Shown piece by piece: positions 9,112 to 50,797 of a stretch of DNA of 64,000 nt. Numbering within the stretch: position 1 is the first letter of the stretch; each line of letters starts with the position of its first letter. A program made the translations under genes and the position numbers. Source of the DNA: Halapricum desulfuricans (lineage in GTDB: Archaea > Halobacteriota > Halobacteria > Halobacteriales > Haloarculaceae). The notes beneath the pieces are model-generated. The model searched no databases, had not been told where the DNA came from, and saw only the letters and a program-made list of their open reading frames with translations. The DNA is taken from contig NZ_CP064788.1 in assembly GCF_017094525.1 (NCBI RefSeq), positions 2,093,030 to 2,157,029 on the forward strand, in the 5' to 3' direction.

Positions 9112-9171
9112 CGCCCGCAACATACCACGGCAGCGACAAGGGTGTTTCCCCTCCTGACGCAGCCCGGAGTG

Positions 9172-9250
9172 ATACTGTCGGCTGTAACAAACTGAAGGAA
9201 TTCGCCACCCCGGGTGGCGAATATCGTTACGAACTTACAGCCGACAGTAT
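9172..9250 (-). repeat. Nested palindromic element, family 1, copy A
   Basis: The outer arms at 9172-9187 and 9235-9250 are perfect 16-base inverted repeats (ATACTGTCGGCTGTAA and its complement). The inner arms at 9200-9210 and 9212-9222 are perfect 11-base inverted repeats around one C. The spacers on both sides are 12 bases. Read on the minus strand it aligns along its whole length with the element at 34341-34420, including the stretch GGGGTGGCGAATTCC. It begins 61 bases upstream of the formate/nitrite-type gene start. Confidence 0.9.
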
Positions 9251-9455
9251 GAGCCCCCAGTATCCGGCCGGGATCACGTGATTTTTGTTTGTCCCCTCCC
9301 TATCGCTCGCTATGCAGGAACTGCGCGCCGTCGCAGTCCGCCCGAGAGTCGACAGCCAGCCGCGCGGTCCGGGCTGTCGTTGTCTGTGACTTCTCGCCCG
9401 TTTCGGTTCGACTATCAGACGCTACCAACGCGTTTCCGCAAGCCACCATCCACCA
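9251..9455. other. Gene-free stretch between palindrome and cysE
   Basis: With the palindrome this completes the roughly 340-base gap between two divergent genes. I see no coding region. It contains a T-rich patch (9282-9291), and a cysE promoter must lie in it, but no clear TATA box stands out. Confidence 0.5.
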
Positions 9456-10055: not shown

Positions 10056-10155
10056 GCCGTAAGCGGCAGGAGTCACCCGCTGAATCAAGATAGCGCGCGG
10101 CTTCGAGCCAACCCGTCGGACAAAGACTATGTCGGTCCCCCGAGTCACGGTCGGT

Positions 10156-10356
10156 ATGTCCCAACGGTTACCGATCGAGGAACGCGACCAGCGAAACGTC
10201 CTCGTCGTCGCGGCGATCATGGCAGTGGTCATCGCCCTCACTCTCAACGAGCCGGCACAAGTCCGCGTCGTTGTTGGGGCGATGATGGGTGTGTTCAGCG
10301 GTCTCGTCTACCTGGTCGTGACGCTCGTCCTCAGGCGCTTCATCGATGCGTACTGA
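10156..10356 (+). CDS. Small two-helix membrane protein, unknown function
   Basis: From the ATG at 10156 this encodes 66 residues beginning MSQRLPIEERDQRN. It has two hydrophobic segments, about residues 15-32 and 38-58, and ends RRFIDAY. An in-frame start at 10129 would add nine residues. I do not recognise a family. It stands alone between cysE and the Orc-like gene, and a family 2 palindromic element begins five bases after its stop, which could act as its 3' structure. Confidence 0.65.
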   Translation: MSQRLPIEERDQRNVLVVAAIMAVVIALTLNEPAQVRVVVGAMMGVFSGLVYLVVTLVLRRFIDAY

Positions 10357-10360
10357 TACC

Positions 10361-10429
10361 GGTGGCTATACCATTTCGAAATGATTCACCACGCCGTCGT
10401 GCAAGAGATATTTACGAACGTATAACTCC
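10361..10429 (+). repeat. Palindromic element, family 2, copy 1
   Basis: It starts with GGTGGCTATACCATTT (10361-10376), identical to 50593-50608. A central hairpin CACG-CCGT-CGTG lies at 10390-10401. Near the end, ACGAACGTATAACTCC resembles the tail of the other copy. The outer pairing GGCTATA/TATA is weaker here than in copy 2. Confidence 0.7.
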
Positions 10430-10534
10430 CTGTATGATCCTCGCCGCGACTCTTCCCACAGAACCTGTTGAACTGGGATCAAATCATTTTTTATTCCCGG
10501 CGGGCCAGTAGTAGTTAGAGAATAACGATTAACG

Positions 10535-20768: not shown

Positions 20769-20813
20769 GGAACGTACTCACGTCTTGCGAATCCAAAACG
20801 ACTGTGGGAGAAG

Positions 20814-20886
20814 TGGGCCGGCGCAGATTCGAACTGCGGTTACGGCCACCCGAAGGCCGAAGGATACCAAGCTACCCCACCGGCCC
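20814..20886 (-). tRNA. tRNA-Pro, anticodon CGG
   Basis: The minus strand folds as a 73-base cloverleaf. The acceptor is GGGCCGG/CCGGCCC with discriminator A. The anticodon stem CGGCC/GGCCG closes the loop TTCGGGT, giving anticodon CGG (proline). The T arm is CGCAG-TTCGAAT-CTGCG. The 3' CCA is not encoded and no intron is seen. Confidence 0.95.
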
Positions 20887-34301: not shown

Positions 34302-34340
34302 TGCATCCAGTAGGATACGGGGGGACTTGAATTCGTGCTG

Positions 34341-34420
34341 ATACTGCCGGCTATCCGTTCGTCGAGATAGTCGCCACACTGGGGTGGCGAATTCCAGTGA
34401 AATGGGATAGCCGGCAGTAT
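34341..34420 (+). repeat. Nested palindromic element, family 1, copy B
   Basis: The outer arms at 34341-34356 and 34405-34420 are perfect 16-base inverted repeats (ATACTGCCGGCTATCC and its complement). The inner arms are TCGCCAC at 34371-34377 and GTGGCGA at 34384-34390. The 14-base spacers are equal. Compared with copy A, changed bases in the outer arms occur on both sides and keep pairing. Confidence 0.9.
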
Positions 34421-34459
34421 GCCGTGCGTGTCACCGGGCCGTCAATAGCGGGACCGTGG

Positions 34460-40587: not shown

Positions 40588-40653
40588 GAAGAACCGCAGT
40601 ACAGCAGTAGCTTATCGAGGCTTCTTTTCGAGAGGAATGAGGAGGTGTCGGTT

Positions 40654-41958
40654 GTGCACACCAAAACCTCCTCATCGAGAGTTATGCGTCGGCTCACTAC
40701 ACTGTTTCCCTCCGAGTTCCTCAAAGAGCACGCCGAGGAACTCGGCGTGGTCGAACGAGAGGGAAAACTCCAGGTTCCAGTCCTCGTGTGGGCGCTCGTG
40801 TTCGGCTTCGCCGCAGGCGAGAGCCGAACACTCGCTGGGTTCAGACGCAGCTACAACTCCACAGCTGACGAAACGATCTCGCCCGGTGGCTTCTATCACC
40901 GGTTGACACCGACGCTGGCGGAGTACCTCCGCGACCTCGTTGAGCGCGGTCTCGACGAGGTCGCTGTTCCCGACGCTGTTGACGCTGATATCGACCGATT
41001 CAGGGACGTGATGATTGCTGATGGAACGGTGTTGCGGCTCCACGAGTTCCTCTCTGATGAGTTCCAAGCCCGTCACGAGGAGCAGGCTGGAGCGACGCTC
41101 CACCTGCTCCATAACGCCACCGACAAGACAATTGAACGGATCGACGTAACAGACGAGAAAACGCACGACAGCACGTTGTTCAATACAGGTTCGTGGCTGC
41201 AAGGACGGCTCGTTTTGCTCGATCTAGCGTACTTCAAGTACCGCCGCTTCGCGTTAATCGACGAGAACGACGGCTACTTCGTGAGTCGGCTGAAGAAGAG
41301 CGCGAACCCGGTGATAACAGAGGAATTACGGGAATGGCGCGGGCGCGCCATTCCCTTGGAGGGCAAGCAGATCCACGATGTGGTCGATGACCTCTCGCGG
41401 AAGTACATCGACGTAGAGGTCGAGGCGGAGTTCAAGCGAGGACCGTACGAAGGGACGCGCTCGCTGGATACGAAGCGGTTCCGCGTCGTCGGCGTCCGCG
41501 ACGAGGACGCCGACGACTACCATCTCTACATCACGAATCTGCCGAGAGAGGAGTTTCTCCCGGCAGATCTAGCAACGCTGTATCGGTGTCGCTGGGAAGT
41601 AGAAACGTTGTTCCGTGAGCTGAAGACACAGTACGAACTGGATGAATTCGACACAAGCGACCCGGATGTCGTGGAGATTCTGCTGTATGCGGCGTTGCTG
41701 TCACTGCTGGTGAGTCGTGAGCTGTTGGATCTGGTCACCGAGCAGGCTGACGATGAGATCGTGTTTCCGCCGGAACGCTGGGCGGCGACCTTCCGGTCGC
41801 ACGCCCAGCTCATCCTCCACGAACTCGGTGAGTACCTTGGCTACTCGCCACCGCCGCTGTTGGAGCGGCTGATCGAAGACGCACAGAAGATCCACCAGCA
41901 ACGACCGATCTTACAAGAGACGCTCGCTACCGCCACGCAACCGAGGTGTGAGTCTTAG
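40654..41958 (+). CDS. IS4 family (ISH8-type) transposase
   Basis: The 434-residue transposase begins at the GTG at 40654, chosen because GGAGGTG (40641-40647) lies six bases upstream. An in-frame GTG at 40645 or ATG at 40684 are alternatives. DDE residues appear in MIADGTVLRL (near 113), LLDLAYFKYR (near 190) and the IS4 Y-R-E-K signature YRCRWEVETLFRELK (near 315). It cuts and pastes the element between its inverted repeats. The frame is intact and the stop codon lies inside the right repeat. There is no sign of decay, so the element may still be active. Confidence 0.94.
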   Translation: MHTKTSSSRVMRRLTTLFPSEFLKEHAEELGVVEREGKLQVPVLVWALVFGFAAGESRTLAGFRRSYNSTADETISPGGFYHRLTPTLAEYLRDLVERGLDEVAVPDAVDADIDRFRDVMIADGTVLRLHEFLSDEFQARHEEQAGATLHLLHNATDKTIERIDVTDEKTHDSTLFNTGSWLQGRLVLLDLAYFKYRRFALIDENDGYFVSRLKKSANPVITEELREWRGRAIPLEGKQIHDVVDDLSRKYIDVEVEAEFKRGPYEGTRSLDTKRFRVVGVRDEDADDYHLYITNLPREEFLPADLATLYRCRWEVETLFRELKTQYELDEFDTSDPDVVEILLYAALLSLLVSRELLDLVTEQADDEIVFPPERWAATFRSHAQLILHELGEYLGYSPPPLLERLIEDAQKIHQQRPILQETLATATQPRCES

Positions 41959-50540: not shown

Positions 50541-50592
50541 GCAACACCGACGAGCTTCGCTCGGGTGAGCAGTCCCGATCACCCGTCAAACT

Positions 50593-50654
50593 GGTGGCTA
50601 TACCATTTTGATCTGGCACGCCGACGTGCCGGCTTTCTTTGCGAACTTATAGCC
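50593..50654 (+). repeat. Palindromic element, family 2, copy 2
   Basis: It opens with GGTGGCTATACCATTT, identical to 10361-10376. The outer arms GGCTATA (50596-50602) and TATAGCC (50648-50654) are perfect inverted repeats. The central hairpin is GGCACG-CCGA-CGTGCC (50615-50630). It lies 52 bases downstream of the HEWD gene, in a 257-base gap that is otherwise featureless. Confidence 0.75.
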
Positions 50655-50797
50655 TATCAAACGCGGAGTGTCGATTCGAAGCAGGTCAACCGCCTCGGGG
50701 TCAAGCCCCGTGGCATCCGCCTCGTACCGCCTGTGAAAACGTCCCGTCTCTTCACCCGCAGCCCTGCAGACGACTTCGTTCTCGTCGTCGCGGTCGT

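Follow-up and report, generated by a model that had tools for sequence, protein, structure and literature searches.

Two nested palindromes in a 64,000-nucleotide stretch of the Halapricum desulfuricans chromosome (the window, hereafter) raise the question of what they are and of why both of their arms have changed together. In the original prediction they were placed at positions 34341-34420 and 9172-9250, and two origins were offered: a short palindrome that is mobile and copied in trans by a transposase, or a structured RNA. Both positions are right, the two sequences align over 79-80 bases, and the inner TCGCCAC/GTGGCGA stem and the paired changes in the arms (T/C with A/G, and GTAA/ATCC with TTAC/GGAT) are present as described. 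The outer arms do pair, but over 15 bp instead of the proposed 16, because the outermost A...T pair belongs to a target duplication, TN[A]...[T]NA; likewise, the spacers regarded as symmetric are equal in length but are not complementary to each other. As single strands, these palindromes fold with z-scores of −6.6 to −9.4, and no shuffled sequence was equally stable. Of the two origins proposed, a palindrome mobilised in trans is the better one.

Copies of the element in the window

Four copies were found within the window, with the following features:

34342..34419, plus strand: element copy 1, 78 bp, the copy of the original prediction (80.8 bits, E=4e-26)
34339..34341, strand not applicable: left target duplication of copy 1, TGA, a single site in the congener G005 (locus L228)
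34420..34422, strand not applicable: right target duplication of copy 1, now TGC, one change from TGA
34342..34356, plus strand: left outer arm of copy 1, 15 bases, paired with 34405-34419
34405..34419, plus strand: right outer arm of copy 1, from folding and family covariation
34371..34377, plus strand: left side of the inner stem of copy 1, TCGCCAC, inner helix covarying across the family
34384..34390, plus strand: right side of the inner stem of copy 1, GTGGCGA, inner helix covarying across the family
9173..9249, minus strand: element copy 2, 77 bp (88.6 bits, E=6.4e-29)
9170-9172 and 9250-9252: target duplication of copy 2, TGA/TGA
10357..10434, minus strand: element copy 3, full-length and diverged, 78 bp (41 bits, E=8e-12)
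10354-10356 and 10435-10437: target duplication of copy 3, TGA/TGA
50590..50660, minus strand: element copy 4, a degenerate remnant (34 bits, E=2e-9)

Copy 1 belongs to a divergent subfamily with the TIR TACTGCCGGCTATCC. Copy 3 stands exactly at the TGA end of an open frame on the plus strand (10084-10356), and the model match of copy 4 covers 50596-50654, corresponding to model positions 8-71. The only tRNA gene within the window, tRNA-Pro (CGG), is located at 20813-20886 on the minus strand.

Boundaries and target site

The element is 78 bp long and runs from TACTGNYGGCTRTA to TAYAGCCRNCAGTA. Alignment of 46 own-genome copies with their flanks revealed that the base preceding the leading A recurs, with few exceptions, after the final T, and this recurrence defines the element as TACTG...CAGTA inside a duplicated TNA. 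Comparison of flanks for 183 copies in 191 loci showed identical 3-bp flanks in 151 of them (53 of 57 in the genus and 98 of 126 elsewhere), nearly all being TNA, and the preferred target is C-TNA-G, with C before and G after the triplet.

Empty sites were found in a close relative, the congener G005, where orthologous positions carry a single TNA. This is the case for the window copy at 34342-34419, whose site reads GCTGA|CGTGCG in G005 vs CTGA-element-TGCCGTGCG when occupied, and also for loci L035 and L013. Two sites (L008 and L009) are occupied in G005 as well, where the matching flanks adjoin copies of that genome, which indicates that insertions have accumulated over time. At three loci (L011, L023, and L037) an older, diverged copy directly adjoins the left flank with one TNA in common, so the same target is used repeatedly. 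Separately, loci L001 and L002 have 15 bases of right flank in common, with unequal flanks at L002 (TGA/TTA), a pattern that recombination between two copies could leave.

Copy number and distribution

With a looser pattern, 58 copies were detected on the 2.89-Mb Halapricum chromosome. A strict pattern, consisting of both tips with 40-60 bases between them, recovered 41 copies in the same genome, vs none for the reversed-pattern control. Fourteen own-genome copies are identical in sequence and many more are 95-99% alike by BLAST, indicating that the spread is recent. Strict copies are also present in four of the five congeners. Across Halobacteriales, matches occurred in 23 of the 194 genomes, spread over 11 of the 66 genera, at 0 to 62 copies per genome. 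When 84,980 prokaryote species were scanned, the matches listed were exclusively haloarchaeal. The element is found on haloarchaeal plasmids as well. Lengths are mostly 77-80 bp (70-80 over the haloarchaeal range), and 88 of the 126 copies outside the genus set are exactly 78 bp long.

The many copies, the exact TNA duplication and the empty sites in a congener support the mobile palindrome moved in trans that had been suggested. We consider it highly probable that the element is a non-autonomous DNA transposon (MITE) of 78 bp, made of two TIRs of ~39 bp placed back to back. It is short and lacks a transposase gene, it has TIRs and a duplicated target, and it is multicopy and mobile; its 3-bp TNA duplication is the one expected of an IS5/IS1031 or PIF-Harbinger derivation. 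The halves are nearly symmetric, and each would be a complete transposase-binding end, with nothing between the two. A DDE-type transposase encoded elsewhere may bind each half at two contact zones, putatively the TACTGNYGGCTRTA tip, which is invariant, and an inner zone, AAGA..TTCG, that is conserved; it would then excise or copy the element and integrate it at TNA through a cut staggered by 3 bp. If both ends have to serve one enzyme as identical sites, this would account for the nested palindrome, the paired changes in the arms and the constant length.

Search for a partner transposase

We infer the class of this enzyme (target-duplicating, DDE-type, acting in trans) from the 3-bp duplication alone. 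Among the listed ends of the genus, no inverted pair was found around a transposase at insertion-sequence distance, and the ends listed for 14 further genomes likewise gave no transposase with such a pair around it. Inspection of 60 DDE_Tnp_1 (PF01609) loci, 30 from the genus and 30 from ten copy-bearing genomes, revealed none with these ends or with a convincing TNA duplication around ends of its own; a weak 13/18 end pair at one of them (L350) is probably due to chance. For PF13586, 22 genomes gave no match over the cut-off and one sub-threshold match, and PF13359 had no matches in 12 genomes.

Several other candidates were discarded. A DDE transposase gene of the IS4/ISH8-like type, with ends CATCCGTCTTTAGC, is located at 40645-41958 in the window and has five copies in its own genome; another copy interrupts a 78-bp element at G000:2844057. 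This last one was rejected as a parent because it sits inside a copy and has its own ends. Solitary intact ends were considered as ends of a larger transposon, and those examined were decayed copies or lay beside host genes. As for viral carriage, the sole match on a viral contig was an unrelated palindrome, and neither a half-element match nor a phage match was obtained.

A different type of mover was also considered, namely a host-encoded or otherwise undescribed, non-mobile archaeal enzyme that would recognise the 78-bp double hairpin and home to stop codons, as a counterpart of the REPIN/RAYT system built on a target-duplicating enzyme; we regard this as unlikely. Quite improbable, in turn, is a REPIN-like element in the proper sense, that is, a hairpin that a Y1 (RAYT-type) transposase of the host would mobilise as single-stranded DNA, the hairpin itself being under selection. 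The form of the element resembles that of REPINs, which were described with two conserved tips in inverted orientation and constantly spaced, compensatory changes in a hairpin spacer, a high copy number and mostly non-coding sites (PMC3116915). However, the 78-bp element clearly duplicates 3 bp of its target, and no Y1_Tnp match was obtained in two copy-rich genomes, G106 with 62 copies and G053 with 26. Six other genomes had 15 Y1 loci, none of them flanked by a paired element. A 3-bp target duplication is not known for REPINs.

Origin of the paired changes in the arms

In 98 distinct 78-mers, pairing across the dyad is near complete at positions 1-14 and 29-35, whereas in the spacer (15-28) it mostly corresponds to the expectation from composition, with the exception of position 23. 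In the 15-bp arms, 95% of cells are paired. The top covarying column pairs (6-73, 33-46, 12-67, 35-44, and 29-50) all lie on the dyad. For 41 diverse sequences the covariation score was 0.254, in comparison with 0.102 for shuffled and at most 0.086 for slid alignments, and 13 of 24 pairs showed double changes. The tip is invariant (TACTG, GGCT), with covariation at positions 6 and 12 and in the inner helix at 29-35. Positions 16 and 63 are almost never complementary, being mostly G/G or C/C, and this conserved mismatch implies that the two halves are distinct and the ends not identical. In addition, several copies of one subfamily are changed on one side only at position 15 (GTAC...TTAC). Mini-hairpins in the spacers, forming a cloverleaf when seen by eye, were dismissed, since the spacers have no supporting covariation.

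The original prediction took these paired changes as the mark of a folded RNA or single-stranded DNA under selection, as opposed to a simple binding site. The covariation is real, yet two inverted ends that have to bind one and the same transposase would be expected to covary too. Selection on RNA pairing predicts an excess of G.U over A.C among one-sided changes on the transcribed strand, and in copies at stop codons the mRNA strand had 12 of each. Furthermore, recent own-genome copies showed 18 changes in 48 stem positions vs one in 26 spacer positions, the reverse of what conservation of the stems would give. These two results do not support selection on an RNA fold, and no match to known RNA families was found in Rfam. 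On the other hand, each 39-bp half combines the invariant tip with a conserved inner zone (T17, G20T21, A23A24G25A26, and T29-G32). We prefer to regard the covariation as a symmetric constraint at the DNA level, by which both ends would match one bipartite transposase end; hairpin-templated conversion between arms, or cruciform recognition, may contribute.

Two further observations concern individual copies. One chimera (L052:2473-2550) has a left half of the TACTGCC subfamily and a right half of the TACTGGT subfamily, which suggests recombination between copies at the centre. At loci L042 and L043, the inner stem-loop has lost 6 bases in two independent deletions, which is what palindrome-induced slippage would produce.

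Insertions at stop codons

Gene calls made with a simple codon-model caller placed 48 of 130 insertions (37%) exactly on a stop codon, 73 between genes and nine within predicted genes; among 12 plasmid copies with RefSeq annotation, six were located exactly at a CDS end. Stop codons thus took 48 of the 121 non-coding insertions (40%), in comparison with 8.5% of non-coding TNA sites (p=3e-20). When only CTNAG was considered, the values were 60% of insertions vs 26% of sites (p=2e-5). The odds ratio was 3.3 against non-coding TNA sites up to 67 nt downstream, and it fell to 1.9 (p=0.014) once the C and G context was matched. Strong homing to stop codons was consequently rejected, since matching the target context removes most of the raw excess. 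The pattern is mostly explained by the C-TNA-G target motif together with tolerance, with a possible modest residual preference for stop codons beyond target context. As TGA and TAA are themselves TNA sites and the duplication rebuilds the stop, insertions at gene ends would be harmless and persist.

These data also bear on a structured RNA or 3′-end element (a terminator or mRNA stabiliser) spread by transposition and kept at gene ends. The strong hairpin, the covariation in both helices and the frequency of copies at stop codons are in its favour. However, besides the absence of wobble preference, the rapid recent change in the stems and the reduced excess at stop codons, the polarity of the element relative to the abutting gene is random (24 vs 19), no T-run lies 3′ of it, and orthologous sites in the congener have no copies; we therefore hold this explanation to be very improbable. 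A site dispersed over the genome, bound by a nucleoid, replication or segregation protein and mobile by chance, would suit the nested dyad symmetry, the fixed spacing and the wide clade, but is hardly credible given its patchy presence among genomes and the target duplication at most sites.

Relation to known elements

A 3-bp TNA/TWA duplication is characteristic of the IS5 family, of IS1031-type elements and of Tourist/PIF-Harbinger MITEs. The 78-bp MITE resembles them in this duplication, whereas no transposase with matching ends was found in the copy-bearing genomes searched. Among haloarchaea, the MITE families of Haloquadratum walsbyi have ends related to known transposons, and haloarchaeal MITEs are likewise short and gene-less, with TIRs, target duplication, many copies and the need for a transposase in trans (PMC3119063). 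In contrast to the H. walsbyi families, the element described here had no partner found, is only 78 bp long, and is a nested palindrome throughout. The Haloquadratum SMR-A/B elements (~110 bp for SMR-A) are also short, with prominent inverted ends unlike those of known transposons and up to 54 copies, but they do not duplicate the target, and SMR-A inserts at PATE/IS605 palindromes (PMC3119063); the 78-bp element duplicates TNA, at C-TNA-G and often at stop codons.

The accessible text of a 2024 review of prokaryotic MITEs names haloarchaeal ones in Halobacterium and Haloquadratum only and does not contain the phrase "stop codon" (PMC10969869). No earlier description of the 78-bp family was found in the literature searched, with most subscription papers and ISfinder outside it.

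The element represents a very small MITE under structural constraint, which is widespread in Halobacteria and seemingly consists of just two transposase ends; as the searches yielded no partner for it, it poses the question of which enzyme moves it. It also provides a clean natural case in which insertion at stop codons is tolerated, with the TNA duplication rebuilding the stop. Finally, it calls for caution in the use of compensatory changes, since these are commonly taken as proof of RNA structure but also arise in the arms of inverted-repeat transposons.
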